A stretch of 64,000 nt of DNA. Origin: an uncultured Sphingomonadaceae bacterium. GTDB lineage: Bacteria > Pseudomonadota > Alphaproteobacteria > Sphingomonadales > Sphingomonadaceae. The position numbers and the translations under genes are program-made. The notes under the pieces are model-generated. The model had not been told where the DNA came from. It saw only the letters and a list, made by a program, of their open reading frames with translations, and did no database searches. The stretch is taken from the NCBI GenBank assembly GCA_947497315.1, contig CANMFX010000003.1:124001-188000 (forward strand), written 5' to 3'. This document shows, one piece after another, positions 4,825 through 62,146 of the stretch (the first letter of the stretch is position 1; each line of letters starts with the position of its first letter).

Positions 4825-4831
4825 TTTCGGT

Positions 4832-5698: not shown

Positions 5699-5738
5699 AT
5701 GGCCTTGTGCCCACCGCTTGAACGAGCGACAAGGGCAA

Positions 5739-6479: not shown

Positions 6480-6536
6480 ATTAGCGGGGCATAAGGTCCA
6501 TCTGCATGGGTAATCGAAACATATTGGAAAGCTGTT

Positions 6537-6794
6537 ATGGCAAAAGTCGAAATTTATACCAAATTCACATGCGGATATTGCTTTCGGGCAAAGGGCTTGC
6601 TGAAGAGCAAAGATGTCGCTTTTCAAGAGACGGACATTACCATGGGCGGTCCAAAGCGCGAGGAAATGATCCAGCGTTCGGGCGGTCGGACGACGGTTCC
6701 CCAGATTTTTATCAATGATCAGCATATTGGCGGTTCCGATGATCTTGCAGCTTTGGAAGATGCCGGGAAACTAGACGCATTGCTGGCGGCCTGA
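6537..6794 (+). CDS. grxC: Glutaredoxin 3
   Basis: Dithiol glutaredoxin of 85 residues that uses glutathione to reduce disulfides in the cytoplasm. The active site is C12-G-Y-C15, with Gly in place of the more usual Pro of CPYC. The cis-Pro motif TVPQIFIN and the glutathione-binding GGSDDL are intact. The start ATG at 6537 follows GGAAAGCTGTT. It sits 57 bases after comF and 6 bases before the nitrilase-family gene. This comF-grxC-nitrilase-DUF1178 order is a familiar alphaproteobacterial run and suggests one operon. Confidence 0.93.
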   Translation: MAKVEIYTKFTCGYCFRAKGLLKSKDVAFQETDITMGGPKREEMIQRSGGRTTVPQIFINDQHIGGSDDLAALEDAGKLDALLAA

Positions 6795-6800
6795 TCGCAG

Positions 6801-8149: not shown

Positions 8150-8189
8150 AGCTGGTCTATCTGACAAGCACCCGTTAAATGACGGGCAA

Positions 8190-8266
8190 GCGCCCGTAGC
8201 TCAGGTGGATAGAGCATCAGATTCCTAATCTGGGGGCCACAGGTTCGAATCCTGTCGGGCGCACCA
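8190..8266 (+). tRNA. tRNA-Arg (CCT)
   Basis: A 77-nt cloverleaf with the 3' CCA encoded. The acceptor stem is GCGCCCG (8190-8196) with CGGGCGC (8256-8262). The anticodon stem is TCAGA/TCTGG and the loop TTCCTAA, with anticodon CCT at 8224-8226. The T-arm is ACAGG-TTCGAAT-CCTGT. The anticodon reads AGG, a rare Arg codon. Confidence 0.97.
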
Positions 8267-8286
8267 GTTTTTTCGATTGATGTTGT

Positions 8287-8913
8287 TTAAAGGTCGAATG
8301 CCATTCTGGACATTATTTCGACGGTTTTATTTTCAAACACCGCGTCGCCGAGTTCTTCTTTCTTTTCGGCTAGCAATTTGTCGCGATCGTGCAGCATATC
8401 GATAATCGGATCATGAAAGACCTCGACAGCGGCGGTGAGCCAGTCGTTGACCAGCGGGTCGCCAGGGGCTTTGTTCATTGAAAAAAGCTTGAGCCGCGAT
8501 GCAATGGCATCGGCGGGCATGAAATATTCGTAAGTGACCCAATAGTTGGTTGTGAACCAGCTCAATGGCATGCCATCCAGGCCAAAACTCAGTGCGCCGA
8601 AATGAACGACGCCTTGTGTTGGCTTGCCATTGGGAAGTTTTTTGGGAGGTTCGTAGAGCGCGTTTACGCCTTTGAACATCTCGAGCGGCAGAAACATGTG
8701 AAAATGGCCATGCTCACCTTCTTCGCGTTCCTCGGGCTTGTGCGCATGGTAGAACCAGCGAGACTTGTTGCCCGGTGCAACACAATCACCCTTAGGATAG
8801 TGTTCATACTGAACGAAAGGGGCGTCTGCCGGTACCACTCTGGGTACTAGCGAGACGCCCTCTTTAGCTATCTGGCCTGTAAGCTCAAACAGCCTTTCTA
8901 ATGCATTTTCCAA
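8287..8913 (-). CDS. Uncharacterised His-rich protein (possibly DUF6969)
   Basis: A 208-residue protein with no signal peptide or membrane segment that I can see. It has a cluster of histidines and aromatics, WFYHAH (53-58) and EHGHFHMFLP (67-76), followed by VHFGALSFGLDGMPLSWFTTN. It may belong to an uncharacterised family (DUF6969 comes to mind, not certain). The His cluster looks like a metal or cofactor site. The gene starts 15 bases after the stop of the Ala/Cys lipoprotein gene and probably shares its transcript, so the two products may act together. It converges with the tRNA gene. Confidence 0.65.
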   Translation of the reverse strand: MENALERLFELTGQIAKEGVSLVPRVVPADAPFVQYEHYPKGDCVAPGNKSRWFYHAHKPEEREEGEHGHFHMFLPLEMFKGVNALYEPPKKLPNGKPTQGVVHFGALSFGLDGMPLSWFTTNYWVTYEYFMPADAIASRLKLFSMNKAPGDPLVNDWLTAAVEVFHDPIIDMLHDRDKLLAEKKEELGDAVFENKTVEIMSRMAFDL

Positions 8914-8928
8914 TGCGCTGTACTGATA

Positions 8929-9237
8929 TTACTCAGTAGCGGCACATGCAGCAGCACACGCAGCGTCACCAGCGGCACATGCAGCAGCTTCAGCGGCACA
9001 GCCAGCAGCGTCAGCAGCACAACCAGCGGCACATGCAGCAGCACAACCAGCTTCTTCAGCAGCACAACCCGCGGCACATGCAGCTTCTTCAGCGGCACAT
9101 GCAGCACATTCAGCGGCACATTCTGCAGCAGCAGCAGCATCTTCAGCTTGCTCAGCACATGCTGAAAGAGCAGGAACTGCAAGAGCAAGACCACCAGCTA
9201 CTGCCAGCATTTTGCGGAAACTTGTTTCGTTAGACAT
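8929..9237 (-). CDS. Ala/Cys-repeat lipoprotein
   Basis: A 102-residue protein with an N-terminal signal and lipobox LSAC (Cys27 predicted to be lipidated). From about residue 33 to the end it uses only A, C, E, D, G and T. Twelve cysteines in the tract (40, 44, 47, 54, 58, 65, 69, 73, 80, 87, 94, 98) are spaced 3, 4 or 7 residues apart, so they line one face of an alpha-helix. The ATG at 9237 has AAAGGGGAT about 7-14 bases upstream. The DNA is a degenerate CAG/GCA-rich tract and other frames are open across it, but only this frame has a start with signal and ribosome site. The family is unknown; metal binding is inference. Confidence 0.7.
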   Translation of the reverse strand: MSNETSFRKMLAVAGGLALAVPALSACAEQAEDAAAAAECAAECAACAAEEAACAAGCAAEEAGCAAACAAGCAADAAGCAAEAAACAAGDAACAAACAATE

Positions 9238-9377
9238 TTAAAATATCCCCTTTGGAATGAACTAGACTTTCCCCTCTATCTGCAAAGATATGGGCATGGC
9301 AAGTCTATTTGTGCGATATCCTGGAAAATGGCTGAAATTGTCGCTTTTTTGGGCGTTTAAATAGTTAATTGCACGAA

Positions 9378-9402
9378 AATCAGGCGGTTAATCTGCCCGA
9401 TT
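9378..9402 (-). terminator. Possible terminator after the holin gene
   Basis: On the minus strand AATCGGGC and GCCTGATT form an 8-bp stem with one G-U pair around a 9-base loop, followed by TTTCG. It lies 30 bases past the holin stop. It is short and only moderately stable. Confidence 0.4.
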
Positions 9403-9431
9403 CTTCGTCTATTCACTACTGATTTCGCGGC

Positions 9432-9845
9432 CTATTTCTCCACACCTCGGATTTTTCCCCACTGCCGCGCCATAGTATAGCCCAGATAACCAGTACCAAA
9501 TAACGCGTATAGAGGCTCTGGAATACCGGCAAGATAAGCATTCATCCCGCTGGTGATATCATGAGCCGCTTGCGGTCTGATTGCCGAGATTAAACCCATA
9601 GGTAGCGACCAAAGCAGCAATATATACATGACGTAAAGAAAGCTTGGCCGGGCGCGGCTGGTCCACGGGTCGGGAGACCCGGCCTCGGCCAGTATCGCCG
9701 ACATTTGGATACGTAGCTGCTCCATCTCCTGGCTGCCCTCAAGTTTGAGTAGCTCCAGCATTGCGCGATCACGGGCACCTTTGTCGGGAATGATCTTCTC
9801 GATAATCTTGGAAATGGGGCCGATGAGGGTCGAGAGTAAAGACAT
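9432..9845 (-). CDS. Holin of gene-transfer-agent type (3TM)
   Basis: A 137-residue protein matching the family of 3TM holins associated with gene-transfer-agent release. It has an amphipathic N-terminus (LIGPISKIIEKIIPDKGARD), a helical linker (LLKLEGSQEMEQLRIQMSAI) and the signature DPWTSRARPSFLYVMY leading into hydrophobic segments at about residues 68-87 and 105-125. A holin pierces the inner membrane so that an endolysin can reach the wall. It lies 48 bases downstream of the endolysin gene on the same strand. No capsid or tail genes are in the window, so this is a separate lysis cassette. Confidence 0.85.
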   Translation of the reverse strand: MSLLSTLIGPISKIIEKIIPDKGARDRAMLELLKLEGSQEMEQLRIQMSAILAEAGSPDPWTSRARPSFLYVMYILLLWSLPMGLISAIRPQAAHDITSGMNAYLAGIPEPLYALFGTGYLGYTMARQWGKIRGVEK

Positions 9846-9893
9846 GGTTTTTAGTTCCTTATATCTGGTTTGGGGAGGAGGCTGATCGGACTT

Positions 9894-10433
9894 TCAGCCT
9901 ATGCGGTGGGCGAGCCAGCCATAGAGGAACGCTTCATTGGCCGGACGCTGTTCAGCCAGTTTTATGTAGCGCGCACCTTGTAAGGCTTCGACGGCCTTCA
10001 GCAGAACCGCCTCGCCGCCGTTGGCGCGTTTCGCCAAAAATTGCTGCAAGGCGCCAATTGTCCTTGGGCCGATCTGGCCGTCGGTTGCAATATCGGCAAA
10101 ATCCCGCCCGTTGCGGTTCAGCGCATTGAGGGCCCGTTGAAGGAAGCCGGCCGCGATCGCTGGTCCCATATTAATGCCGGTGTCGAACAATTCTCCAGCC
10201 AGCTGCGGGGCCAGTGCGCTGACCTTATCAAACGACGGACGCAGCCAGTATCTGCGTTTATATATGGCGACCGCTTCGTCGTAGGGAAAATACCGCATGT
10301 CACCGGCATAACCATGGCTGCGTGCGACCGCTTCGGTAACGCCCCAGCGGGTGGGTCCGCCGCGGTCACCGGGGTGATTGGAATAATCGCCTTCTATGGC
10401 GATGACGTCGTCGATCAATGTGTCGATATTCAT
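9894..10433 (-). CDS. Endolysin, glycoside hydrolase 108 family
   Basis: N-acetylmuramidase of 179 residues that should cut peptidoglycan during lysis. The N-terminal domain has the family's catalytic motif EGDYSNHPGDRGGPTRWGVT at 14-33, with Glu14 the likely acid. A C-terminal peptidoglycan-binding part carries DGQIGPRTIGALQQFL. It has no signal peptide, as expected for a holin-dependent enzyme. The ATG at 10433 was chosen over one 69 bases upstream because it is preceded by GGAAGGAAAGA and gives the canonical N-terminus MNIDTLIDDVIAIEG. It pairs with the holin downstream, as in the Rhodobacter capsulatus gene-transfer-agent lysis genes. Confidence 0.87.
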   Translation of the reverse strand: MNIDTLIDDVIAIEGDYSNHPGDRGGPTRWGVTEAVARSHGYAGDMRYFPYDEAVAIYKRRYWLRPSFDKVSALAPQLAGELFDTGINMGPAIAAGFLQRALNALNRNGRDFADIATDGQIGPRTIGALQQFLAKRANGGEAVLLKAVEALQGARYIKLAEQRPANEAFLYGWLAHRIG

Positions 10434-46263: not shown

Positions 46264-46656
46264 ATGAAGAAAACGATATTAAGCCTAACCGCCGCCGCGC
46301 TGTTTTTGCCGGCTACGCCAGCACTAGCTGATGCGGGTGGCTATACTGATCATGGTGGCCCTGTCGCGGGTTTCTATCGGGTCAGTGATGATGACTGGGA
46401 CGACGATGATGACGATCGCTATTACAAGCCCCGCCGGTTGAAACGCGGGGATCGCTACTGGCGTGGCCGCGACGGGCGCTATTATTGCAAGCGCAAGGAC
46501 GGCACGACGGGACTGATCATTGGTGGCGCCGTCGGGGCGCTCCTTGGCCGGGAAATTGATGGCGGCCGGGACCGGACTGTTGGAACTGTGCTGGGTGCTG
46601 CCGGTGGTGCGCTTTTGGGCCGGGAGATTGATCGCGGAAAATTGCGCTGCCGTTAA
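46264..46656 (+). CDS. Exported glycine-zipper 2TM protein
   Basis: A 130-residue envelope protein with a Sec signal (LTAAALFLPATPALA), a central stretch rich in Asp, Arg and Tyr (DDDWDDDDDDRYYKP, RGDRYWRGRDGRYYCK) and two glycine-zipper repeats: GGAVGALLGREIDGG and GAAGGALLGREIDRG. It belongs to the glycine-zipper 2TM type seen in 17 kDa antigen-like and SlyB-like proteins, but lacks a lipobox. AAGGGAG lies 8 bases before ATG. A related gene is at 48.6 kb. Confidence 0.82.
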   Translation: MKKTILSLTAAALFLPATPALADAGGYTDHGGPVAGFYRVSDDDWDDDDDDRYYKPRRLKRGDRYWRGRDGRYYCKRKDGTTGLIIGGAVGALLGREIDGGRDRTVGTVLGAAGGALLGREIDRGKLRCR

Positions 46657-48576: not shown

Positions 48577-49005
48577 ATGATCAACAAGGTTTTAGGAACA
48601 CTCGCCATCACCACCGCTGCTGTTTCGGCGATGGCCTTCGCAACGCCCGCTGAAGCGCGTGGTGGTTATTATCAAGGCTATAACGACGGCTATTATCAGC
48701 ATGTTGGTGATGACCGCCGCTATTATCGTCGTGGCGATTATTACCGGGATGACCGTTATTATGACCGCCGGGATCGTCGTGCTTATCGTGAAAAGCGTCG
48801 TTATTATCGCGACAAGCGTCGCTATCGCAATGATCGTCGCCGTTATCGTGGATGTGATCGCGGTACGGGCGGCACCATAATCGGTGCTATTGCTGGCGGA
48901 TTGCTGGGCAATGAAGTAGCTGGCCGCGGTAGCAAGACCGAAGGCACGATCATTGGTGGTGCAGTTGGTGCGCTTGCCGGTCGGGCGATTGATCGCAACT
49001 GCTGA
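48577..49005 (+). CDS. Exported glycine-zipper protein, Tyr/Arg-rich
   Basis: A 142-residue envelope protein with a signal (ITTAAVSAMAFATPAEA), a long Tyr/Arg/Asp-rich stretch (YYRRGDYYRDDRYYDRRDRR) and a C-terminal glycine zipper, GGTIIGAIAGGLLGNEVAG and TIIGGAVGALAGRAID. It is a relative of the protein at 46.3 kb. TTTTGGAGTAGAAGTA provides the ribosome site before ATG. The basic stretch could bind peptidoglycan, LPS or nucleic acid; that is inference. Confidence 0.82.
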   Translation: MINKVLGTLAITTAAVSAMAFATPAEARGGYYQGYNDGYYQHVGDDRRYYRRGDYYRDDRYYDRRDRRAYREKRRYYRDKRRYRNDRRRYRGCDRGTGGTIIGAIAGGLLGNEVAGRGSKTEGTIIGGAVGALAGRAIDRNC

Positions 49006-49149: not shown

Positions 49150-52100
49150 TCACCGGCGCGCCAGCATTGGCGGTACAGGGCCGATCCAATCCGATAAATC
49201 AACCTCGTCCTTCACGAAATAGGGCTTGCCCTTGCTGTTGAGATAAAAGCGCTGCATTTCGCTGCGGGTAAAGGGCCGGGAACCTAGTCGGCCGAACACG
49301 GCCATCTGTCCACCGGTTTCATCCACTGCCCGGTCACGATCCAGTCCCTTGGACAAGGCCAGTGCGGGTTTGGGGGTACGGGCAAAGGCAATCAGTTCCG
49401 GCATGGGCGGCGGTGAGAAGCCATAATAATTGGGCTGACTGTCCGGTGAGGTCAGCTGAATGACTTTCAGACCATTGCGGCCGTCGGCAACATAGGCAAA
49501 CAGAGTGGCATTGGTCGAACCGACAATGACGTCTTCTGCGTCATTCATCTGGCCGCCAAATGTTTCCTTGCGATAGATAACCGGTGCCGCTGGTTTTGTA
49601 ATGTTGGCAATCACTAAGCCTTCGTCTTTGGCGGCGATATAGGCATATGTACGGGCCAGGTAGAGGCGGCGGGCATTGTTCAGAGGAATTGTCCCGGACT
49701 CTACCGGAACCGGGTTTTCCATATCCGTCACATCGAACAGTTTTACGCCATCAGTATCGGTTACCCACAGATAGCGGAACTGCAATGCAGACGCCCGCGC
49801 GTCGGTCATAGGCATGGTGACAACATGGCGCGGTTTCAATGGATCGTTGAGGTCAATGACGACAAGCCCGCTCGCGGCTGTGATATAGGCATAATGGCCG
49901 GCCAGCGTGATATGCTTAGCCCCGTTCAAGACCCCGTCCGCATTCCAGGTAACGGCGCGCTTGAAGAAGTTATTGCGGAACTCACCGTCGGCCAGCGTGT
50001 TGATGTCGACAAGGATCAGGCCTTCTTCGCTATCGGTAATAACGGCATAATTATAGATCGGGTGGAATGCCTGTTCTTCATTAATCTCGCGCAGCTCGGC
50101 AGTGTTCCGTTCCGGTGCGACTGGCTGGTTGGTCGACAACGCCATGCAGGTTGCATTCTTGGTATCAACATGGGTGTCATGGCCCAAAGAAGAGAAGGGC
50201 GCCTTGACGATCCGTTCCGAGAAGCCCTTGTTTCCGATCGAAGCGACGTCATAGGCGCGGAAGCCGCCTTTACCCTCCGCGACAAACATATATTCACCTC
50301 GCAGCTGCAAACAGCGGACGCTGTCGCCGGTGCCCTGAACCACATTGGCAAATTCTTCCAGGGCTTTGGTCTCACCAGACAGATTGGCATCGAGCCGCTC
50401 GCCGCGCACCCAGTTGATGAGTTCGCGCCCATTATCTTCAACATGCATCCGCCAGTAATCGGGATAAGCATATTTTTGGAGGTAAGAACCGATGACCGCT
50501 TGCGGCTCATCCCATTCGGTCACGCGGACCGCTTCAAAGCCTTTGTCCATTCCGACCCAGGCATGCAGGCCGACAAAATTCACGAAATTTGTGCCCTGCA
50601 ACAGTAGCTGAGACATGATCGCATTATTGTCATTGGCTTCGCTTAAGTGACAATCGGAACATTGCTTGGTCTCGGTCTTGCGAACCGTGTGCGGGAAGTG
50701 CGGTGCAAAGGCTTGGCTGGAGAAACCGATGGCCGATATGGGCGGCTGCTGCACATAGATGCGTTCACGGTTGATATTGGTTGAGGAGAGCACCAGCGCT
50801 GAGGTTGACCGCACCGGTGCGATAATGCTGCCCTTGGTTGTCTGGTGACGGCCAAGCTGGAACATCTGATCGCGGGCAACCTGCGGGTTATAGGTGGCAT
50901 AGTTACGTGTAGTGCCGCCTTCATATTTATGGCTTTCCGTTTGCCAGTTGGCTTCAATCGGCAAATGGCAGCCGCCACAGCTGGTCGTCCAGCTCAAATG
51001 GCAGGTAAAGCACACCATATTCTCATCTTTATGCGCCCGATCAGCAGCGGGTACGCCAGTACCAAAGCTGTATTTCCCCGTTTCAGCGCCGGTCTTGGAC
51101 ATCAGCTTGGCACGAGCCGACTTCAGGTTGAAATCAGGGTGCGAACGATCAACGCTGTCTTTGACCAGACTGACCCGCCAGCTGAGTTCAGGGTCCACGA
51201 TAGAACGTTGGATCAATACCCGTTTGCCATTGGCGTCCTGCATCCACTCAAAGCGGCGTTGTCCATCGGCATTGCGCAGTAGGTTAAGGTTCTTGCCCTT
51301 CGGCCGCGCCGCCAGATTTGATGTCATCAATGTCGGATAAGCATCGGCGGTGCCGTGGCAGTCTTTGCAGTTTATCTCCACCGCATTGGCAACCTCGCCA
51401 TAGATCAGGCCGTTGCCGTGGCTATCCTGGGCGAAATGACAGTCTGCACACTGCATGCCAACTTCGGCATGGATGCTCATCATGTGGACGGATTTGCCCG
51501 GATTGATCCCGGGTTCAACGAATTTCTCTTCGTCCTCGCGGCGGAATTTTTCCGGATCATCATTGTCGACAATATCGCCATCTTCATCGAGCAGATTGCC
51601 GTCACGATCACGTTTCAATATGGCGCGGAAATTCCAGCCATGGCCATGATAGTCGGCAAATTGTGTATCCTTGGCCTTGCTGTTGAGATCATAGACATTA
51701 CGCAGGAAATCGAGATCGCCCCAAAGACCTTTGGGTGAAGCGGCTTCTGGATTGCGGTCGAGGATCTTGCGCACTTCTTCGGCATCGGGATATTTCTGCT
51801 GTTTATAAGTTTTCTGATATTCCTCATCACTCATGCCCACGGGCCGCGGCGTGGTATTGTTGGGCCCGGGCCACATCAGGGGGGCATCGGACTCATAGTC
51901 CCACATCGTATAGCCGAGGAAGCTGTTCAGGAAGATATTGGGCTGATGCATGTGACAGTTCATGCACTGGGCCGTTGGAATGGCGCGCGTGAAGGCGTGC
52001 TGGATAGGATGCCCCTTTTCCCGTTTCGCCGGGTCTATGTCGCCGCTGTGATCATCGCCATGTCCGTCATCATGGCCGCCCTTCTTGCTATAGGAAGCGT

Positions 52101-53277
52101 CATAAGTCCCAAATTTGCCGACGCGGTGCTCACCCTCTTTCAGGTTTCGGATCGTTGGATCTTTGGTTTGCGTCTGTCCGTCGCGACCATATTTGGCCCA
52201 TATCAGGCTGTGGCGCGGCTCGCGGTCATTGGCATAGACCACATGACAACTGGCACAGCCAGACTGGCGATAGTCACCGGGCTGATCATTGGTACCCATG
52301 AACCATGTGAACGGATCATTGAGCCGGGTCTTGTGGATATTCAGAGCCGGAATGGCAACGCGCAGCCCGGTGCCGGGGCCGCGGTTGGATTGTTTCAGGT
52401 CCGGACGGCCCGGTTCCTCAAGTCGCTGAATGATTCCGCCAATGTTCGGCAAGCCGATTTCAGGAAATTGTGTGTTGATATTGCGGCCACCGCGCTCAAA
52501 CACACGGAACACATCGCCCGGCGGAATGGTATGCCAAGTGGGCAGGGGATAGAGAATAGGCAAAGCACCCCGCTTTTTTTGCTCTTCCGTTACGGTACCA
52601 TGCGGATTGCCAGGTGATTTGATCGTCGCGGGCAAGCCCTTGCGCGTATAGGCTTCACCGAAAACATAGTTTTTAAATGGTACGATGCCGTTGTTATAGG
52701 CAGCGCCGCCCCAGAGCATGGCGCCAGTTGCCATCAGCGATCGTTCTGAAGCCTCGATAATCTCCATATGGCAGGCGCCACATGCCTCGCGCGCAACGCG
52801 ATAATCGGACGGATTGACGAAACGAACAAATTCCGGTGATTCCTTGTTCAGCAATGTATAGCTGCGCTTCGGATTGGCGGAAGACGGCCAATGCCAGCTT
52901 TCGGGATATTTGGGGAGGACATGCGCCTTTTTCAGCGCATACATATATTGCGGGCTTTTCTTGCCCCAGGAATTATCGCCTGTGACGCTGGCATCGCCGC
53001 CATGACAGTCGACACAGCCAAGCACGACAGCGGGCGTTTCATGCATGGTTTTCTGATCGCTGTCGGTATGACAGGATACGCAGCCGGTGCTTTTTGTGTT
53101 TGCAGCATCCCAAGTCTGGTTCTGCGGCGCTGGTGGTGTGAAGGTGTAGTCAATTTTCTGAGGCTTCTCTTTTCCTGCAGCAAGTAGCGCTGATGTTCCT
53201 GCAACGCTCAGTCCAGCGATGCCGAAGCCAGCGATGACAAAACGCTTATATCGGGAGAGAAGATTGAGAGACCGCAT
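49150..53277 (-). CDS. Ten-heme cytochrome c with C-terminal LVIVD beta-propeller
   Basis: A 1375-residue exported protein, far larger than usual periplasmic cytochromes. After a signal/anchor at about 13-35 come ten CXXCH motifs, at residues 66, 88, 166, 341, 438, 610, 637, 756, 767 and 873. From about 950 to 1290 there are at least six repeats of the type YAYITAASGLVVIDLNDP, YLWVTDTDGVKLFDV and YAYIAAKDEGLVIAN, which match LVIVD-repeat beta-propeller blades. ATG at 53277 was chosen; the frame runs 84 codons further upstream but overlaps the beta-barrel gene. It is last in a four-gene operon. The unusual fusion suggests electron transfer coupled to binding of a large partner or substrate outside the inner membrane. 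Confidence 0.88.
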   Translation of the reverse strand: MRSLNLLSRYKRFVIAGFGIAGLSVAGTSALLAAGKEKPQKIDYTFTPPAPQNQTWDAANTKSTGCVSCHTDSDQKTMHETPAVVLGCVDCHGGDASVTGDNSWGKKSPQYMYALKKAHVLPKYPESWHWPSSANPKRSYTLLNKESPEFVRFVNPSDYRVAREACGACHMEIIEASERSLMATGAMLWGGAAYNNGIVPFKNYVFGEAYTRKGLPATIKSPGNPHGTVTEEQKKRGALPILYPLPTWHTIPPGDVFRVFERGGRNINTQFPEIGLPNIGGIIQRLEEPGRPDLKQSNRGPGTGLRVAIPALNIHKTRLNDPFTWFMGTNDQPGDYRQSGCASCHVVYANDREPRHSLIWAKYGRDGQTQTKDPTIRNLKEGEHRVGKFGTYDASYSKKGGHDDGHGDDHSGDIDPAKREKGHPIQHAFTRAIPTAQCMNCHMHQPNIFLNSFLGYTMWDYESDAPLMWPGPNNTTPRPVGMSDEEYQKTYKQQKYPDAEEVRKILDRNPEAASPKGLWGDLDFLRNVYDLNSKAKDTQFADYHGHGWNFRAILKRDRDGNLLDEDGDIVDNDDPEKFRREDEEKFVEPGINPGKSVHMMSIHAEVGMQCADCHFAQDSHGNGLIYGEVANAVEINCKDCHGTADAYPTLMTSNLAARPKGKNLNLLRNADGQRRFEWMQDANGKRVLIQRSIVDPELSWRVSLVKDSVDRSHPDFNLKSARAKLMSKTGAETGKYSFGTGVPAADRAHKDENMVCFTCHLSWTTSCGGCHLPIEANWQTESHKYEGGTTRNYATYNPQVARDQMFQLGRHQTTKGSIIAPVRSTSALVLSSTNINRERIYVQQPPISAIGFSSQAFAPHFPHTVRKTETKQCSDCHLSEANDNNAIMSQLLLQGTNFVNFVGLHAWVGMDKGFEAVRVTEWDEPQAVIGSYLQKYAYPDYWRMHVEDNGRELINWVRGERLDANLSGETKALEEFANVVQGTGDSVRCLQLRGEYMFVAEGKGGFRAYDVASIGNKGFSERIVKAPFSSLGHDTHVDTKNATCMALSTNQPVAPERNTAELREINEEQAFHPIYNYAVITDSEEGLILVDINTLADGEFRNNFFKRAVTWNADGVLNGAKHITLAGHYAYITAASGLVVIDLNDPLKPRHVVTMPMTDARASALQFRYLWVTDTDGVKLFDVTDMENPVPVESGTIPLNNARRLYLARTYAYIAAKDEGLVIANITKPAAPVIYRKETFGGQMNDAEDVIVGSTNATLFAYVADGRNGLKVIQLTSPDSQPNYYGFSPPPMPELIAFARTPKPALALSKGLDRDRAVDETGGQMAVFGRLGSRPFTRSEMQRFYLNSKGKPYFVKDEVDLSDWIGPVPPMLARR

Positions 53278-53278
53278 A

Positions 53279-55387
53279 TCAGAAAGCCAGTATCGCGTTG
53301 AAGAGAATGGAATAATGGAAATCGCGTTTGTCGGTTTGATCGAACAAGTCTTCAAAGCCTTTGCCAGGCAGCAACGCCGCACCCGATAAGCGGAAAACCA
53401 AATTCTGGTTGGCGTTGGGACGGTAAATGGCTGCCGCCGACAAATCCCAGCCGATATCTTTAGGTATCGAGCCCTCGACGCGCAGCGCTTCAAGGCTTTC
53501 CGTCTTGTGGAACCAAAGATGATTGGCATTGGCCGATAGACGGAAATCCGGCGTCAGGTCGGCATCAACGCCCACGCCCGCTAATATGGTGCCGGGGTTG
53601 TTGAAATTGCTCTGCCCCTGCTCCTTGGACGATCGCAAGGAATTGAGGATACCGTTTCGGCCATTGATGCTGATTGCCCGTCCTCCACCGGCAAACGGGA
53701 TGGTTTGCCGGATCCAGTAACTGGTATCAGCACCGGCAAAAATCGGGTTTTCAAAAATGGCATCGAACCCGGCTTCCGTATTATTGTAGGGATTGCCGTC
53801 TCCGCTCGCGAGCAGGCCGGAGGCGCGAAAGCGTAGGAAGTCGACATCATAACTTGCTTCTGCCGCAGCGAAGTAGGCGGCAATTTTGGCCGGTTCGCTG
53901 GTGAATATGCTGTTGCGATCTTCACCGAAAGCACCATAAATCTGCCCGGTCACGTTAATTCGTCCGATCCGGCCATCGACCGCATAGCCAGGATACACGA
54001 CGTCATAGGCGCGGCCCCGTAAATCTCCGATCAGGGCCGGGCGAACCGGGAAGCCGTTATCATCAATCTCGATATCGTTCTTTTCGCGGTTCATATTATA
54101 GGTCAGGCTGAACTGGCTGGTCAGGCCGACAAAGGGCAAATCCTGACGATAGAGATTGGCGAAGAAAATATAGCTTTCGCGTGGCGTTTGGGTGATATCA
54201 TTGAGGCCGCTATTGGTATCCTTTTCCAGCTGTACAAAGGCGCCAAGATTATACTGCACACGGTTATTGTCCCGCGTGCCGAACAGGCGGAAACCGAGTT
54301 GATTATCCTGAAACAGGAAGCCGCGGAAATCGGCCTGCATGGGTTGGATACCGATACGGAAGCTGTCAAAGTCATAGCGAGCCGAGGTATTGCGGATATG
54401 ATAGTCGAAAAACGCCTCCTGCACGCCGACAAACCAGTCGGTGCGGTTGGAGGTTTTTGAAGGTTCGACAAACAGCACTCGGCGTTCCGGAACGTTCACA
54501 TGGTTGATCTGCGTTGCCAGGGTCAGGCGATACTCTACATCAGGCGGCTTGTAGGCAGTAGAGCCTTTGATCAGTGCGAAACCTGTGATGAAGGTTTGGG
54601 CGTAAACTTCCGAACCTGAGCGGCCAAAGACATCGATGCTGCCTGAACGCTCGGTGGTTTGGACGCCGACAGGGATAGGAAAGCTTCGTGGTTCGATAAC
54701 CGTATCCGAAATCGCATTGACGACAAAGAACCAGTCATCGCCCTTCAGGAAGGACGGCTTCTTGTCGGCCGGAATAGGCTTGTCGCCCTTCAGCACATTT
54801 TGTGCATATGGGTTGGACGTGTTGCTGCAATTATTCTTCAGCGCGCCGAATACCTTGTAGATCGACTGATCACCGCCTTTTTGTGGGCATAAGGTCTGTA
54901 ATATCCGCCAGCGATCGGGGACGGGAAATTCATCGGTCGGAAATGCTTCGGGTGGTGGCGCACTGACAGCGCCGGGATTATTCTGGATTATACGATCGGG
55001 CAATTCTTTCGACACACCCGGACGGCGGCGACCATCAATCAGCGCTTCATCTGCATTCAGACCGTCAAAATCCATCTCCAGTTGTTCTGGCTGGGCGGCC
55101 TCGGGTTCCGCCGTTGCCGGAACCGTAGCTGGTGGTTCTGTAGTTTCGGCTGCGGCTTCTTCTTCGGGATCGGGCCCGCCGACGGCCATCAAGCCAGCGC
55201 CTGCATCTATTTCAGCAAGGTCAAAATCTGAATTTTCGACACGCATCCAATCAAACTGCTCGCTTGCCAGCAAAGCGGTGAGCGAGCTTTCCATTTCTTC
55301 AATAGAGAGGCGCTGAGCTTCCATCTGTTCGGCCTGACCCGACATCACCGTCATAATCGGCAGGAAAGAGGAGGATAATGCAGGCAC
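53279..55387 (-). CDS. Outer-membrane beta-barrel protein of the cytochrome operon
   Basis: A 702-residue protein. The N-terminus (LSSSFLPIMTVMSGQA) is a possible signal and is followed by a helical segment and an acidic Pro/Ala-rich linker (EEEAAAETTEPPATVPATAE). From about 170 onward the chain alternates polar and aromatic residues, as in a beta-barrel (e.g. FRGFLFQDNQLGFRLFGT, YNLGAFVQLEKDTN), and ends with a terminal Phe (YSILFNAILAF), the outer-membrane insertion signal. It is not a TonB receptor (no plug). One base separates it from the 10-heme cytochrome gene. A porin next to multiheme cytochromes suggests a trans-outer-membrane conduit, as in MtrAB-type systems, but no sequence similarity to MtrB is claimed. 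Confidence 0.78.
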   Translation of the reverse strand: MPALSSSFLPIMTVMSGQAEQMEAQRLSIEEMESSLTALLASEQFDWMRVENSDFDLAEIDAGAGLMAVGGPDPEEEAAAETTEPPATVPATAEPEAAQPEQLEMDFDGLNADEALIDGRRRPGVSKELPDRIIQNNPGAVSAPPPEAFPTDEFPVPDRWRILQTLCPQKGGDQSIYKVFGALKNNCSNTSNPYAQNVLKGDKPIPADKKPSFLKGDDWFFVVNAISDTVIEPRSFPIPVGVQTTERSGSIDVFGRSGSEVYAQTFITGFALIKGSTAYKPPDVEYRLTLATQINHVNVPERRVLFVEPSKTSNRTDWFVGVQEAFFDYHIRNTSARYDFDSFRIGIQPMQADFRGFLFQDNQLGFRLFGTRDNNRVQYNLGAFVQLEKDTNSGLNDITQTPRESYIFFANLYRQDLPFVGLTSQFSLTYNMNREKNDIEIDDNGFPVRPALIGDLRGRAYDVVYPGYAVDGRIGRINVTGQIYGAFGEDRNSIFTSEPAKIAAYFAAAEASYDVDFLRFRASGLLASGDGNPYNNTEAGFDAIFENPIFAGADTSYWIRQTIPFAGGGRAISINGRNGILNSLRSSKEQGQSNFNNPGTILAGVGVDADLTPDFRLSANANHLWFHKTESLEALRVEGSIPKDIGWDLSAAAIYRPNANQNLVFRLSGAALLPGKGFEDLFDQTDKRDFHYSILFNAILAF

Positions 55388-55392
55388 TTTCT

Positions 55393-57393
55393 TTACAGTC
55401 CCTCGCAGACATTTTGGTCATCGGTGTCGAGAAACGGCGCAAACGGACAGTTTACATAGCGTAAACGGACTTGTGCATCGCCAAGATCAACCACGACATT
55501 GTCGGCGCGAATGACTTTTGGCGCATTGCCAATGCCACCTACCCGCAGCCCGGCATTGTGCAGGCCAAGAAAGCTGATCATATCATCCTGGTCGATGCCA
55601 TCTCCGGATACACCGAGGCCGCCGACAAGCTGGTCACCGCGATAGATCGGAACGCTACCGGGGAAAATCTGGATACCATTTTCAAGACGGTTTTGACCTG
55701 CCACGGCATCCGGCGTGTTGGTGCAGCGTTCCGCTGTATCGGTTGCCGAAACGCCGGAAATGAAATTGAGATGGCCGGCAATATTACCGATGGTGAGTGC
55801 GACTTGCAGTCCGGTTGCAAATGGATTGAACTGGTCAATCGGCCGCGACAAGGGGCCATTGGGCCGCCCCAACTCACCATCAGGGAAATAGGGGCGGGCC
55901 AGGTTGCCGCCTGACCGGTCGGCAAAGGCCACGGTTCCGGTGAGGGCGTTAGGATCATTTAAAAACGTACGCACGCGTCCAACAAAGGCAGCGACATCAC
56001 CATCCGGATTGCCCAAAAGGTCTGCCGCTGCAACACTGTTGGAAAAAAAGGACGCCGTTCGCGCTTTTTGTAACGATACATCGGTGCCGAAAATCGGTGC
56101 GTCGGGAGAACGGACAATGCCCAAAATCTCGCCATGAGTATCAACAACGGAAATTGAAACTTGGGCGCGACTGTCCAATGGTTGCCGGATTTGCGCGCGA
56201 GCACGGCTCATGATGATAAAGGACTCTTCCAAAATCGCCCGAGTTTCTGCGGCCGTGAGCGGGGTCGCTACATTGGCTCCATCAGTTCCGGCCCGGATTG
56301 GAAAGCGATTCGTGCCGGTGCCGTCGGTTAAAATAAAGGCATCGCGGTTCTGAAACTCCGCGGCCGTTGATGCGCGGATGCCGGAACTTTCTGTACCATA
56401 AGCCGAGCCAGCGATGATGGTTCCATCGCTATAACCGGTCACCGGGACCAGATTACCGGCTGTGCCGTTAATTGCGGCAAAATTGCTTTGCAGCGGTGAG
56501 AGGTCATCAACCACCATGTCACTGAAACGCAGCGACGTCCCGTCAACGGATATCCGGTTTGCAGTTATCGAAGCGGAGGGAGCAAAGCCCTGTATGCCGG
56601 CCAGTGCTATTGCTTCTTCATCGTCGACATCGGTGTCGAGAATATTTGGGTCAAAGCCGTAATCGCCGTCGCCCATCACGCCAATAGCGCCAACAACGAC
56701 ACCGTTTTTATATAGTGGTAGCCCGCCCGGGTCTGCGGCAAGACCGATGGGGGAGCGTTTCGGGCCAATCAGTGCACTGGCTCCGCCGCCAGCACTGAAA
56801 CGCTGGTTCAGGTCCGAACAGGGAAGCTGGCTGAATTGAACGCCGAACAACGGGCCACTTTCAAGACCAGCAGTCGTCGGTGCGGGCGGAAAATGTTCCT
56901 GTACAATCTGGCTTGCTGTTCGGGTAGAGAAGGCATTTCCGGAGCTCGATAGATAAGCGCCCGTGACAGCCTTGGCGATGGCAGCTGCTTCAGCGGGGAA
57001 AACCACGCCCTGTGCATCCATGGGCGTGGGATTGGGGCCGGCGGACGTCGATATGCTGGTCGTCGCCGTTGCAGCCGCGCCGTTCATACGAAAAACGGCC
57101 AGCACGTTGCCGACCCGATCGGTAACGGCGATAACCGAAGGCAGGTTGCGCGCAGTTGCTTCTCCGACGGCTTGCGCAATGATCGTCTGTACATCCGTAA
57201 CGCTAAGCGATTCTTGGGCAGGAGGCGTAAATGCTCCACCATTGCCATCAATTGGTGTTGGCGTTGGCGTCGGGGCAGGAGCTGGCGCGGGAGCAGGGTC
57301 TCCGCCAAAATCATTGCTGCCGCCACCGCCACCGCAAGAGGTCAGGATCAAGGCAGCTGCCGAAATTGCAGCGGTGAAACGGATGTTCCGCAT
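55393..57393 (-). CDS. Lipoprotein with two GlcG/HbpS-like domains
   Basis: A 666-residue lipoprotein. The lipobox LTSC places the lipid on Cys20; a Gly-rich and then Pro/Ala-repeat linker (APAPAPAPTPTPTP) follows. Two tandem GlcG/HbpS-like domains are visible, about 60-310 and 390-650. Each has the N-terminal LSVTDVQTIIAQAVGEA or LTAAETRAILEESFIIM pattern and the end GLPLYKNGVVVGAIGVMGDG or SVPIYRGDQLVGGLGVSGDG. HbpS-like proteins bind haem; a two-domain version in a haem-rich operon fits haem handling or electron transfer. The start ATG (57393) shares one base with the stop of the upstream cytochrome gene. Confidence 0.82.
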   Translation of the reverse strand: MRNIRFTAAISAAALILTSCGGGGGSNDFGGDPAPAPAPAPTPTPTPIDGNGGAFTPPAQESLSVTDVQTIIAQAVGEATARNLPSVIAVTDRVGNVLAVFRMNGAAATATTSISTSAGPNPTPMDAQGVVFPAEAAAIAKAVTGAYLSSSGNAFSTRTASQIVQEHFPPAPTTAGLESGPLFGVQFSQLPCSDLNQRFSAGGGASALIGPKRSPIGLAADPGGLPLYKNGVVVGAIGVMGDGDYGFDPNILDTDVDDEEAIALAGIQGFAPSASITANRISVDGTSLRFSDMVVDDLSPLQSNFAAINGTAGNLVPVTGYSDGTIIAGSAYGTESSGIRASTAAEFQNRDAFILTDGTGTNRFPIRAGTDGANVATPLTAAETRAILEESFIIMSRARAQIRQPLDSRAQVSISVVDTHGEILGIVRSPDAPIFGTDVSLQKARTASFFSNSVAAADLLGNPDGDVAAFVGRVRTFLNDPNALTGTVAFADRSGGNLARPYFPDGELGRPNGPLSRPIDQFNPFATGLQVALTIGNIAGHLNFISGVSATDTAERCTNTPDAVAGQNRLENGIQIFPGSVPIYRGDQLVGGLGVSGDGIDQDDMISFLGLHNAGLRVGGIGNAPKVIRADNVVVDLGDAQVRLRYVNCPFAPFLDTDDQNVCEGL

Positions 57394-58799
57394 TATCGTA
57401 ATGCCCTTATCGTTCTGACCGCACTGCCAAGCGCGCGGCGGAATTGCAGCGGTTTATAGCTATTGGGATCATCGACAGCCTTATAGGCCACGTTGATCTG
57501 GCCGCGCAGGCTGGAGGCAGCAGACTCGCTGACCTGACCACCGTTGACCAATCCATTGAGCAACGTATCGATTGCCATGACAGCTTGGACGCTGCCTTCA
57601 TAATCGGTGAAGCGCGGCGAGATGGCCTGTCCGGCGATGGTTTCCATGATCTGGAAAGTTTGATTTCGACCAAAACTGGCGCGAGAGAAACGATCTGCCA
57701 AAACCCGCGCCGTCTGACGCAGTCTGGCAGCAGCCTGGACTGCTGGTCCGCGGCCCTGGGCCATCGCCGCGTGGAAAGCCTTGGACCGGGTTTCAAACTG
57801 CTCCGCCATGTCCGGGGCTGCGACTTTAATGGCCGCGCTCAGCATGATCATGTTCTCATCATTATAAGGTGGCATCCCCTCCGGAATGGGGCGACCGGGA
57901 TTGTTGACGGACGTGGGACGTGCCGATGCCTCGTCATAGATACGGCGGTGGCAGCTATGACAATCGTAGAAATAGAATTCGGGGAACAGGCCTTCCTGCG
58001 CCAAGGCGGGCTTAGAAAAGAGGCTGAGCGAACGCTCCAGTGCCATCGATTGCCCGACCGCCCAGAAACGTACTGCGTTGGTTTTTCCTTTACGCCGGAT
58101 ATAATCGACATCTTCGTCATGATGCTGCTGCAAAGTGGAGAAGAGGTCGAGCTCAAAGGATATGCGGGGGTGACCCGCTGCCATGATCCGGTGATCTACA
58201 AACTGACCGCTTTTTGCGCTGCCAAAGTGACAATCAAGGCAATTATCAGCACGGACTTTGGGGTTGTCCAGCGGTTTCAATCCAAGTGAAACATTACGGG
58301 CATGATTGGCACCGACTGCATAATGGGCCGAGAGCCAGCCGGATGAAGGACCGTGACAGGCTTCGCAGCCAACACCATCGCTGAGTTGGAAACGGGGCCC
58401 TTTTTTTGCTGCTGGTGTGCTGTGGCACCCAAGGCATTGCTGGGATGAGGATGCATCTTTTATCCCAAGCCGCTTGGCCATCGCAATGCTGCGGGGTTCG
58501 CGTAGCACACGAAAGGCCCGGCTATGAGCGCCGCCCGGGGTGGACTCTTCCTGCCAGCGCATCAATTCGTCCTGCCGCACCACTTCGCCATCGGCTTCCT
58601 GGCGCCCATGGCATGTTGTGCCGCCGCAAGATGCGACACCCATGTGGGTCCCGCTCGCCAAATCCTGGGCGGCTTCAACCGGTGCTGGTGTTGCAATAGA
58701 AGATATGAACAGAGCTGCGCCAGCAAGCGCAAAACAGAATAGACTAGCGGCCAGCACGGACCAGCTGCGTCTCCACGACAGTTTCTTCCCCATTTGCAT
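57393..58799 (-). CDS. Multiheme cytochrome c, c554-like
   Basis: A 468-residue exported cytochrome. Residues 15-45 form a signal/anchor. The heme motifs are an unusual CX4CH at 58-64 (CGGTTCH) and four CXXCH at 122, 145, 187 and 280. VGCEACHGPSSGWLSAHY and the FDHR-type VDHRIMAAGHPRIS are typical of the c554/hydroxylamine-oxidoreductase-linked cytochrome superfamily. The C-terminal part lacks heme and is helical. ATG at 58799 is supported by AGGAAAAGCAACG. It is the first gene of the operon that continues to the GlcG-like lipoprotein, beta-barrel and 10-heme cytochrome. Confidence 0.87.
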   Translation of the reverse strand: MQMGKKLSWRRSWSVLAASLFCFALAGAALFISSIATPAPVEAAQDLASGTHMGVASCGGTTCHGRQEADGEVVRQDELMRWQEESTPGGAHSRAFRVLREPRSIAMAKRLGIKDASSSQQCLGCHSTPAAKKGPRFQLSDGVGCEACHGPSSGWLSAHYAVGANHARNVSLGLKPLDNPKVRADNCLDCHFGSAKSGQFVDHRIMAAGHPRISFELDLFSTLQQHHDEDVDYIRRKGKTNAVRFWAVGQSMALERSLSLFSKPALAQEGLFPEFYFYDCHSCHRRIYDEASARPTSVNNPGRPIPEGMPPYNDENMIMLSAAIKVAAPDMAEQFETRSKAFHAAMAQGRGPAVQAAARLRQTARVLADRFSRASFGRNQTFQIMETIAGQAISPRFTDYEGSVQAVMAIDTLLNGLVNGGQVSESAASSLRGQINVAYKAVDDPNSYKPLQFRRALGSAVRTIRALR

Positions 58800-59051: not shown

Positions 59052-60488
59052 CTAGACTTTCCGCCGGATGACCAGATTGCGAATTTCAGTCATGTCTTCC
59101 ATTGCGAACCTGATACCTTCCCGTCCAAGCCCGCTATCCTTGACACCGCCATACGGCATATTGTCGACGCGATAGGATGATACGTCGTTGATGACTACGC
59201 CGCCAACATCAAGTCTGTCCCAAGCATCGAGGGTCTTGAACAGATCGCGAGTGAAGATGCCGGCCTGCAAACCGAATTTGCTGTCGTTCACTTCGTCCAG
59301 TGCAGCGTTGAAATCGCTGAATTTTGAAAGCAGTGCCAGTGGTCCAAAAGCTTCTTCGCGATTGGCCGCAGCATTGCGATCAACATTTTCCAGCAGAGTT
59401 GCCTCCAGCATATTGCCGGTGCGGTTACCGCCGCAAAGCAATGTAGCGCCGTCAGCAACGGCTTCATCAATCCAGCCGTGCAGGCGCTTGGCTTCCCCTT
59501 CCGAAATCATCGGACCGATGAAGGTGTCACGGTCTTTGGGATCACCGGCAATCAGGGTTTTGGTTCTAGCGACAAGCATGTCTTTGAACGTGTCGTAAAC
59601 AGATTCATGAATTATGATCCGCTGCACACCAATACAGCTTTGGCCCGACTGATAGAACGCGCCGAAAATGATCCGCTCGAGCGCATCGTCCAGATCAGCA
59701 TCATGATCGACAATGACCGCAGCATTGCCCCCCAGTTCCAGGATGACGGGCTTCTTGCCTGCCTTGGCTTTCAGATCCCAGCCCACACCGGGAGAGCCGG
59801 TGAAAGACAGCAGCTTCAGGCGCTCATCCACGGTGAACAGGTCTGCGCCGTCACGGCTAGCCGGCAAGATCGAAAAAGCGCCCTTGGGCAAATCGGTCTC
59901 GGCGAGAACCTCACCCATGATGATGGCACCCAGCGGCGTCTTTGATGCCGGCTTCATGACAAAGGGGCAGCCCACCGCAATAGCTGGCGCGATTTTATGT
60001 GCCGCTAAATTCAGCGGAAAGTTAAAAGGTGAAATAAAGCTGCATGGCCCAATCGGCACGCGCTTCCACATGCCTTGATAGCCTTTGGCGCGCTCGGAAA
60101 TATCTAGCGGCTGGACTTCCCCATAATTGCGGACCGCTTCCTCGGCGGCTATCCGGAACGTATCGATCAGCCGACCGACTTCTCCTTCTGCGTCCTTGAT
60201 GGGTTTGCCTGCTTCAACACAAAGCGAATAAGCAAGTTCATCAAACCGTTCCTGAAAACGGGTGACACAGTGCTGCAACACATTTTGCCGTTCATAGCTC
60301 GCCATGCGCGCCATGGGCTCGGCGGCTTCCACCGCGCCGGCAATGGCCTCTTCAATAACATCCGGTGTCGCCAGCGCTGTCCGGAAAGCGACCTCGTTGG
60401 TAAACTTGTCCGTGACTTCCAGATCGGTATTCGGCTGGGCGGCTACGTTATTGAGATAAAGCGGATAAACATCTTTGAGTTTTGTCAT
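59052..60488 (-). CDS. Aldehyde dehydrogenase family protein
   Basis: NAD(P)-dependent aldehyde dehydrogenase of 478 residues. The catalytic Cys is in YQSGQSCIGVQRI and the general base Glu in PVILELGGNAAVIV. The cofactor region is GVGWDLKAKAG and the substrate loop GVKDSGLGREG precedes the C-terminus. It starts 12 bases downstream of the ThDP-enzyme gene's stop on the same strand and is very probably co-transcribed with it, so an aldehyde made by that enzyme could be its substrate. The specific aldehyde is unknown. Confidence 0.92.
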   Translation of the reverse strand: MTKLKDVYPLYLNNVAAQPNTDLEVTDKFTNEVAFRTALATPDVIEEAIAGAVEAAEPMARMASYERQNVLQHCVTRFQERFDELAYSLCVEAGKPIKDAEGEVGRLIDTFRIAAEEAVRNYGEVQPLDISERAKGYQGMWKRVPIGPCSFISPFNFPLNLAAHKIAPAIAVGCPFVMKPASKTPLGAIIMGEVLAETDLPKGAFSILPASRDGADLFTVDERLKLLSFTGSPGVGWDLKAKAGKKPVILELGGNAAVIVDHDADLDDALERIIFGAFYQSGQSCIGVQRIIIHESVYDTFKDMLVARTKTLIAGDPKDRDTFIGPMISEGEAKRLHGWIDEAVADGATLLCGGNRTGNMLEATLLENVDRNAAANREEAFGPLALLSKFSDFNAALDEVNDSKFGLQAGIFTRDLFKTLDAWDRLDVGGVVINDVSSYRVDNMPYGGVKDSGLGREGIRFAMEDMTEIRNLVIRRKV

Positions 60489-60499
60489 GATCTATCCTC

Positions 60500-62146
60500 T
60501 TAAACCTTCGCGCTGAGTTCCTTGATCTCATTGTTGAGGATACGGTCATTATCCGAATAGTCCACCGGACAATCGATCAAATGTACGCCTTCACTGTTCA
60601 GGCATTTATCGATGGTTTCCTGCAGGTTTTTCGCACTGGTGATCCGGTGACCATGGGCGCCATAGCTTTCGGCATATTTAACAAAATCCGGATTGTCATA
60701 GGTCAAACCCCAATCCTTGAAGCCCATATTGGCCTGCTTCCAACGGATCATGCCGTAGCTGCTGTCATTCAGGATCAGCACGGTGATATTGAGCTTCAGC
60801 CGAACCGCCGTTTCCATCTCCTGGCTGTTCATCATGAAACCACCATCGCCGCAAATCGCCATTACTTTGCGATCAGGATAGACCATCGCCGAAGCCATAG
60901 CCGAAGGCAGGCCTGCACCCATGGTTGCCAGAGCATTGTCAAGCAACACGGTGTTCGCCTGGCGTGCTTTGTAGTTGCGCGCAAACCAGATTTTATAAAC
61001 GCCATTGTCGAGGCAGATAATACCATCGGCAGGCATTTGTTCACGAATAACTTTCACCAGATGCGGAGGATAGATGGGGCACCGCATGTCATCGTCCATG
61101 GTTGCGGTGTGCTCTTCTTCGGCCGCCCGCGCTTTGTACATATGATCGAAATTCCAAGAACCGGAAGGAACAATATCTTCCTTCATCTGCCAAATGGCGT
61201 TGCCAATGTCGCCAATAACTTCGATTTGTGGGAAATAGACCGGGTCAACTTCCGCTGTGTTCATTGAGACGTGAATGACTTCGGTGCCGCCGTCCTTCAT
61301 GAAGAAAGGCGGTTTCTCGATTACGTCATGGCCAACATTGATGATCAGGTCGGCGGATTCAATCGCGCTATGCACGAAATCATTTGCGGACAAAGCGGCA
61401 CAGCCCATAAATTCCTTGTTTGTTTCATCGACCACGCCTTTACCCAATTGCGTTGTGACAAAGGGAATGCCGGTTTTCTCGATAAACTGAGTCAGCATCC
61501 GGCCGGTGGTGGTGCGGTTGGCTCCGCCGCCAATAACGAGGATGGGAGACTTAGCGCCTTCGATTTTCTTTGTCGCCGCGCGCACCGCTTTGGCCTCGGC
61601 AATCGGACGGCGCGAGAGGCTGGGCTTGATCGGAACCGAATCGGTCTGCTCATCTGCAACATCTTCCGGAAACTCGATATGGGAAGCGCCGGGTTTTTCT
61701 TCCTCGGCCAAGCGGATCGCTTCACGCACACGGCTCGGGATATTGTCCGCTGACGCCAGTTGATGTGTGAACTTTGTAATTGGCCCCATCATGTCGACCA
61801 CGTCCAAAATCTGGAAACGGCCTTGCTTGGACTTCTTGATAGGCTTTTGGCCGGTGACCATGAGGATCGGCATACCGCCAAGTTGTGCATAGGCGGCTGC
61901 AGTAACCAGATTGGTCGCACCGGGGCCGAGAGTTGCCATGCAAACCCCGGTTTTACCTGTGTGTCGAGCATAGGTTGCAGCCATGAAGCCAGCGCCTTGT
62001 TCATGCCGGGTCAGGATCAATTCAATTTTCTTGGAGCGCGACAGGCTGTCCAGCATGTCGAGATTTTCTTCGCCGGGAACGCCGAAAAGATATTCTACGC
62101 CTTCATTTTCAAGACATTGGACGAATAAATCAGATGCTTTGGTCAT
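60500..62146 (-). CDS. ThDP-dependent acetolactate synthase-type enzyme
   Basis: A 548-residue enzyme of the acetolactate synthase large-subunit family. The essential Glu49 is in LTRHEQGAGFMA. The ThDP-binding motif is GDGGFMMNSQEMETA… and ends with NDSSYG; SHIEFPEDVADEQ and GNAIWQMKEDI complete the three-domain pattern. No small regulatory subunit gene is adjacent, so it is more like a catabolic AlsS-type or a carboligase than the anabolic IlvB. It is followed by the aldehyde dehydrogenase gene in a two-gene operon. The substrate is not clear from sequence. Confidence 0.85.
   Translation of the reverse strand: MTKASDLFVQCLENEGVEYLFGVPGEENLDMLDSLSRSKKIELILTRHEQGAGFMAATYARHTGKTGVCMATLGPGATNLVTAAAYAQLGGMPILMVTGQKPIKKSKQGRFQILDVVDMMGPITKFTHQLASADNIPSRVREAIRLAEEEKPGASHIEFPEDVADEQTDSVPIKPSLSRRPIAEAKAVRAATKKIEGAKSPILVIGGGANRTTTGRMLTQFIEKTGIPFVTTQLGKGVVDETNKEFMGCAALSANDFVHSAIESADLIINVGHDVIEKPPFFMKDGGTEVIHVSMNTAEVDPVYFPQIEVIGDIGNAIWQMKEDIVPSGSWNFDHMYKARAAEEEHTATMDDDMRCPIYPPHLVKVIREQMPADGIICLDNGVYKIWFARNYKARQANTVLLDNALATMGAGLPSAMASAMVYPDRKVMAICGDGGFMMNSQEMETAVRLKLNITVLILNDSSYGMIRWKQANMGFKDWGLTYDNPDFVKYAESYGAHGHRITSAKNLQETIDKCLNSEGVHLIDCPVDYSDNDRILNNEIKELSAKV

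Follow-up and report, generated by a model that had tools for sequence, protein, structure and literature searches.

We analyzed a 64,000-nucleotide stretch of contig CANMFX010000003.1 from an uncultured, Sphingorhabdus-like Sphingomonadaceae bacterium (hereafter, the window), in which four minus-strand genes form an operon for two multiheme cytochromes, a lipoprotein, and a predicted outer-membrane barrel. In operon order, these are cyt5 (57393..58799; 468 residues), which encodes an exported cytochrome c554-type protein with four CXXCH motifs and one CX4CH motif; the lipoprotein gene (55393..57393; 666 residues); the barrel gene (53279..55387; 702 residues), which begins with GTG and ends in a codon for Phe; and cyt10 (49150..53277; 1375 residues), which encodes an exported protein with ten CXXCH motifs and C-terminal LVIVD repeats. 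An earlier note on this DNA had described four same-strand genes joined by a 1-base overlap, a 5-base gap, and a 1-base gap, and the coordinates and gaps all hold. Such tight junctions, of the kind that goes with translational coupling, were counted in favor of the electron chain proposed below. Promoter-like and terminator-like sites showed no excess over shuffled sequences (7 versus 7.0 and 12 versus 11.2, respectively).

The same note had credited the 1375-residue protein with ten heme sites and an LVIVD-type propeller, and both features were found. The heme region, from the first to the last CXXCH, spans residues 66-877 (50647..53082, minus strand), and Pfam placed three LVIVD stretches (best at residues 1203-1233) in a propeller region whose limits we estimate at approximately residues 980-1290 (49408..50340, minus strand), in addition to matches to several multiheme families. 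The ten heme-attaching His residues and 13 others were invariant in 35 of 35 aligned rows. The protein has a plain start rather than a lipoprotein-type one. Its score against the Pfam MtrC/MtrF domain was 29 bits, just below the cut-off of 30. The best NCBIfam match was ExtM, at 68.3 bits against a cut-off of 800, and membership in that family was rejected on this score; TIGR03507 (OmcA/MtrC-type) and TIGR03508 (DmsE/MtrA-type) were not among its NCBIfam matches. No relative was found among solved structures searched by sequence.

In cyt5, which matches cytochrome c554 in Pfam, the count of five heme sites given earlier needs qualification: four are CXXCH motifs, and the fifth counts only if the CX4CH motif (residues 58-64; 58608..58628, minus strand) is accepted as a heme site. 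Both Cys residues and the His of this possible site were invariant in all 20 aligned sequences. Against TIGR03508, the DmsE/MtrA-type decaheme model, cyt5 scored 19.4 bits (cut-off, 192.2). The tandem GlcG/HbpS-like lipoprotein had been recognized correctly: Pfam assigns four of its stretches to PF03928 (HbpS-like), and Cys20 lies in an N-terminal sequence resembling a lipobox. At one locus (L109, 1474-4031), a tetratricopeptide repeat (TPR) protein with a barrel-like end and a FecR-domain protein are encoded behind cyt5.

The 702-residue protein had no Pfam or NCBIfam match at E-values up to 1, and solved structures searched by sequence yielded none of use. An AlphaFold2 model based on a 52-row alignment supports its earlier description as a beta-barrel with a C-terminal Phe: it shows a closed barrel with 18 strands of nine or more residues by our own count, in a domain covering residues 219-701 (53285..54733, minus strand), with a mean predicted local distance difference test (pLDDT) of 74.8 and a predicted template modeling score (pTM) of 0.71. 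The N-terminal part was poorly predicted, with pLDDT mostly below 50 up to residue 127. When the model was submitted to Foldseek, AlgE came first (E = 1.3e-16), followed by Occ-type and other porins (best 50 of 817 matches). Nineteen charged residues (9 positive and 10 negative), kept in at least 90% of the barrel sequences, lie on the side presumed from hydropathy to face the lumen. All 39 family barrels inspected end in Phe or Tyr, and the window barrel ends in Phe. Read from its GTG start, the window barrel has a weak signal peptide; ordinary-looking ones, as judged by eye, are present in four relatives (L043, L056, L060, and L109).

Of the 249 Sphingomonadaceae genomes sampled, 94 carry cyt10. 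A sample of the class yielded 20 of 289 genomes (three from the own family; one a contig-end fragment), and a sample of the phylum yielded 11 of 398 (eight from the own family, two from the same class, and one from another class). Among named genomes there are at least 593 relatives; almost all of the 80 best bear Sphingomonadales titles, and they include Sphingorhabdus, Erythrobacter, Sphingobium, Novosphingobium, and Sphingopyxis. Thirteen plasmid records hold cyt10, two of them typed conjugative. From 120 family loci (40 + 80), two without a cyt10 frame (L156 and L171) were set aside; the other 118 comprise 114 distinct loci, and for 101 of these at least 5.5 kb of upstream sequence is available. 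All four genes were present in 99 of these 101, so that the genes are kept together in relatives; the exceptions are L043, which has no lipoprotein, and L172, which has the barrel only. Given this recurrence, the four-gene unit is more than chance. Outside the family (19 loci from 14 genera, hereafter the distant loci), lipoprotein, barrel, and cyt10 occur together in 18, and the remaining locus, L099, begins at a contig end.

Clusters of conserved open reading frames around the distant loci revealed three further proteins, which we call c1 (about 800 residues), c5 (about 290 residues), and c6 (about 590 residues). c1 combines a Pyr_redox (FAD/NAD(P)) domain, two cyclic nucleotide (cNMP)-binding domains, and 4Fe-4S domains, with PF13247 in the copies of L091 and the window genome. 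None of 23 copies has a CxxC ahead of the ferredoxin part, which sets c1 apart from ordinary thioredoxin reductases. Some distant copies contain an Arg-Arg-Asp motif, which we take to be typical of NADPH use; the c1 of the window genome does not. c5 is a diheme-b-type membrane protein with two WX3HX13H motifs. By pattern, both motifs and an SGXXG were present in 10 of 10 distant copies, and the W, H, and H of both were invariant in a 14-row alignment including the copy of the window genome. c6 has an FHA domain, one apparent membrane span, and ten CXXCH motifs. The FHA domain of the window genome's copy scored 19.1 against a Pfam cut-off of 20.7, and a c6 profile matches solved FHA domains.

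The window genome encodes these three proteins in a second operon on another contig (G000:C2, approximately 147875-154142). In the coordinates of the extracted region (L210), c1 (3876-6371), c5 (6502-7383), and c6 (7399-9267) are followed on the same strand by a phosphodiesterase-like protein, a calcineurin-like phosphoesterase (9295-10143) that most resembles SpdA/CpdA, below the equivalog cut-offs (138 of 400 and 81 of 225). A CcmH/NrfG-like TPR gene is divergent from this operon. The four-gene unit, read earlier as a conduit or a multi-protein oxidase/reductase complex, appears to be only half of a system, with its partner operon elsewhere in the genome.

The order and co-occurrence of the parts can be read directly from the DNA. 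In 16 of the 19 distant loci, tblastn found c1, c5, c6, lipoprotein, barrel, and cyt10 in that order on one strand. The remaining three are L099, cut by the contig end; L105, where c1 flanks cyt10 on the opposite side; and L107, whose genome carries c1-c5-c6 on the same contig (L249). Among 29 genomes picked by cyt10 status, c6 was found in every one of the 19 carriers and was absent from the 10 family genomes without cyt10. Across the 249 family genomes, 93 have both and 154 have neither (Fisher, 6e-67, with the kinship of the genomes ignored); the exceptions are G022 (67% complete), with cyt10 only, and G176 (70% complete), with only a 43-residue c6 match. Of the 93 genomes with both, 45 have c6 no more than 15 kb from cyt10, 20 have the two farther apart on one contig, and 28 have them on different contigs. 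Sphingobium herbicidovorans carries the two operons convergently on a plasmid typed conjugative, where they bear generic annotation names only. The co-occurrence, the shared gene run, the linkage, and the plasmid pair all support a chain of two modules.

A search of the phylum sample with c5 found 23 of 398 genomes, including all 11 cyt10 carriers. Four further genomes have a close c5 and no cyt10 match. In two of them the contig ends early, after c6 (L242) or after the barrel, where cyt10 would follow (L245). In the other two, c1 and c5 are fused into a protein of about 1120 residues, followed by a c6 relative with nine CXXCH motifs (L243, 5850-9206; L244, 3052-6423), and no barrel or cyt10 was found near the fusion, indicating that the inner module is not always accompanied by this outer one. 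Type II secretion, a route for surface cytochromes of Shewanella, is encoded beside the operon in 6 of the 19 distant loci. At another locus (L250, 396-6674), a gene for a 2092-residue hypothetical protein and a ShlB/FhaC-type secretion gene lie ahead of the operon.

These observations suggest that an electron chain of two modules, fed by NAD(P)H, probably spans the envelope and that the window operon encodes its outer-membrane module; such a chain would be a variant of the porin-cytochrome type. Further support comes from the domains of c1, c5, and c6, the barrel model, the type II secretion genes, and homology to PCC4, a system that is itself putative. From the parts we infer a route, a direction, a surface-exposed end, a substrate, and a mode of regulation. 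NAD(P)H would reduce FAD and then the Fe-S clusters of c1, from which electrons would reach c6 in the periplasm via the b hemes of c5 and continue through cyt5 to cyt10. At the outer membrane, cyt10 would cooperate with the barrel and the lipoprotein in reducing a specific substrate. The strong reducing power of NAD(P)H favors outward flow.

Regulation of the chain is hinted at by the two cNMP domains of c1, the FHA domain of c6, and two neighbors of cyt10: a phosphoesterase gene in 69 of the 114 distinct loci and a relative of CHASE2-type cyclases in 31 of 114, the latter count standing without a genome-wide control. Three CHASE2-type cyclases tested by Pfam pass the cut-offs. Less firmly, cyclic nucleotides, acting through c1, and phosphoproteins, acting through the FHA domain of c6, might gate electron flow. 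CHASE2-type cyclase genes lie ahead of the operon in L136 (1631-3784), L031, and L161. We put forward tentatively the fuller picture of a complete NAD(P)H-to-outer-membrane chain in aerobes, with a cyclic-nucleotide-gated entry enzyme, a phosphoprotein-reading FHA decaheme protein, and a new complex of AlgE-like barrel, LVIVD decaheme cytochrome, and HbpS/GlcG-like lipoprotein.

Several results weigh against the proposed chain. The earlier note had suggested that the four genes form a conduit across the outer membrane, and the conserved gene set and the predicted barrel agree with this; the fold, however, matches AlgE and Occ-type porins, and MtrB was absent among the best 50 of 817 Foldseek matches. 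A single-chain model of the cyt10 heme region reached a pLDDT of 44.9 and was unusable. At L043 (10190-13419), cyt5 adjoins the barrel and no HbpS/GlcG-like lipoprotein was found, so that the lipoprotein is possibly dispensable; relatives of cyt5 occur in only 12 of the 19 distant loci. Conservation is a further difficulty. In the 62 loci with all seven proteins (61 distinct, as L059 equals L161), cyt10 is closer to the window copy than c6 is to its counterpart in every case. Median similarities to the copies of the window genome are 70% for cyt10, 43% for c6, and 71% for c1 in the 53 family loci, and 57%, 31%, and 51%, respectively, in the nine loci outside the family. The contrast between cyt10 and c6 is softened by c1, whose conservation matches that of cyt10 within the family and is lower outside it. 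Surface parts vary most in the conduits of Geobacter (PMC6148476), unlike the strongly conserved cyt10. Such conservation suggests that cyt10 has a particular substrate or partner and, together with the AlgE-like barrel match, keeps alive a reading in which reduction takes place in the periplasm.

In that reading, which we regard as rather unlikely, the system would be a periplasmic multiheme reductase: the barrel would import a small, probably charged substrate, the lipoprotein would bind it, and cyt10 would reduce it with electrons from c1-c5-c6-cyt5, none of which cross the outer membrane. A fold matching AlgE and Occ-type porins, the 19 conserved charges that hydropathy assigns to the lumen, and a plain, non-lipoprotein start of cyt10 would all suit such a reductase, as would the strong conservation of cyt10. 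The charges are balanced, however, and indicate no clear ion selectivity, and type II secretion genes lie near the operon in 6 of the 19 distant loci. Strand number is compatible with a conduit, since 18 strands are likewise predicted for Geobacter ExtB (PMC6148476).

Electron uptake, in which cyt10 would oxidize an external donor such as Fe(II) or Mn(II) and electrons would run inward, appears improbable. The cytoplasmic end of the chain is an NAD(P)-type flavoprotein, and reduction of NAD(P)+ with donors of the Fe(II)/Mn(II) type is uphill without a further energy source, which counts against this direction; nor was a donor or oxidase identified. Inward flow with iron or manganese oxidation was nevertheless proposed for PCC4 by He et al. 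(PMC5566968), and a 10-heme "Forkhead-associated protein", possibly a c6 relative, is reported from 27 Gallionellaceae genomes (PMC10734462). An accessory role in aerobic anoxygenic photosynthesis is highly implausible: by hand count, cyt10 is present in 23 of 43 reaction-center genomes versus 71 of 206 without, but 71 of the 94 cyt10 genomes, including the window's own and those of four sampled genus-mates, have no reaction-center match.

To our knowledge, Sphingomonadaceae are not usually regarded as electroactive. If the two-module chain is correct, an apparent whole-envelope electron route exists in 94 of 249 sampled genomes of this family and offers a genetic handle on the exchange of electrons between such bacteria and their surroundings. 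If the gating is also true, the chain would be under second-messenger control at its entry enzyme.

Around the operon, the window contains two small exported-looking proteins downstream on the opposite strand (46264-46656 and 48577-49005), with similar glycine-rich C-terminal ends. Upstream, at 59052-62146, lie genes that by the look of their sequence are presumably aldehyde-dehydrogenase-like and thiamine-enzyme-like; their relatives occur near cyt10 in 40 and 33 of the 114 distinct loci, and the upstream neighborhood may thus be partly conserved.

We then compared the two modules with known systems. The putative PCC4 comprises a porin and cytochromes of 4, 5, and 10 hemes; its inner-membrane protein carries two WX3HX13H motifs as well as SGXXG, and the gene before it in subgroup II encodes a PF13247 Fe-S protein (He et al. 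2017, PMC5566968). c5 has the same SGXXG and paired motifs, and a PF13247-bearing c1 adjoins c5 in L091 and in the window genome, as in subgroup II. Heme numbers differ, being 5 (four CXXCH plus CX4CH), 10, and 10 here. Among eight c5-bearing regions inspected, three appear PCC4-like by gene content, as distinct from comparison with published sequences. One (L247) encodes a 5-heme protein, a porin, an FNR/2Fe-2S protein, a tetraheme protein, a cNMP and Fe-S protein, a two-motif membrane protein, and a 10-heme protein, and the other two (L246 and L248) hold parts of this set. c1, c5, and cyt5 are distantly homologous to the cNMP/Fe-S protein, the membrane protein, and the tetraheme protein of these loci, respectively (approximately 24-41% over parts), and the decaheme protein there matches c6 weakly. 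The c1 relatives differ in that L246 lacks the fused Pyr_redox domain and L247 has a separate FNR/2Fe-2S protein. No relation was detected between the L247 porin and pentaheme protein and our barrel and cyt10; the barrel aligned with a two-sequence porin profile (L246 and L247) over 10 columns at an hhalign probability of 0.3. LVIVD, HbpS-like, and FHA parts were not seen in the PCC4 passages of PMC5566968 or, by BLAST, in L246-L248, not all of which were Pfam-scanned. The earlier note knew of no described system with this combination; of the parts of the chain, cyt5 and the inner half have distant homologues in putative PCC4 clusters, and the barrel and cyt10 do not. The PCC4-like inner module may be a building block that combines with different, unrelated components at the outer membrane.

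The operon resembles MtrCAB/MtoAB in encoding exported multiheme proteins and an outer-membrane barrel together. It was not assigned to these systems, as Pfam and NCBIfam gave no match above cut-off to the MtrB/PioB, DmsE/MtrA, or OmcA/MtrC families. The MtrB barrel has 26 strands, in contrast to the 18 predicted here. PCC3, whose inner-membrane protein carries the same two motifs as c5, was rejected because of its heme numbers (median 34 and 21, with low-complexity repeats; He et al. 2017, PMC5566968), compared with 10, 10, and 5 here. The "Forkhead-associated protein" of the Gallionellaceae pangenome (PMC10734462) may be a c6 relative, by description only. A tellurite reductase of Erythromonas ursincola, NADH-dependent, with subunits of 62 and 55 kDa and GroEL as its nearest mass-spectrometry match, could not be tied to the system, as the words "heme" and "cytochrome" did not occur in the main text of the paper (PMC5488091).

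In the open-licence literature, where absence is weak evidence, we found no paper joining LVIVD or GlcG with a multiheme cytochrome, none on multiheme extracellular electron transfer in Sphingomonadaceae, and none combining any three of FHA, multiheme, cyclic nucleotide-binding, and extracellular electron transfer. With a predicted outer-membrane beta-barrel encoded together with multiheme cytochromes, the operon shares a feature of porin-cytochrome conduits. This outer module matched no named family in the searches made and appears to be novel, joined to an inner half and a cyt5 that are distantly related to those of PCC4.

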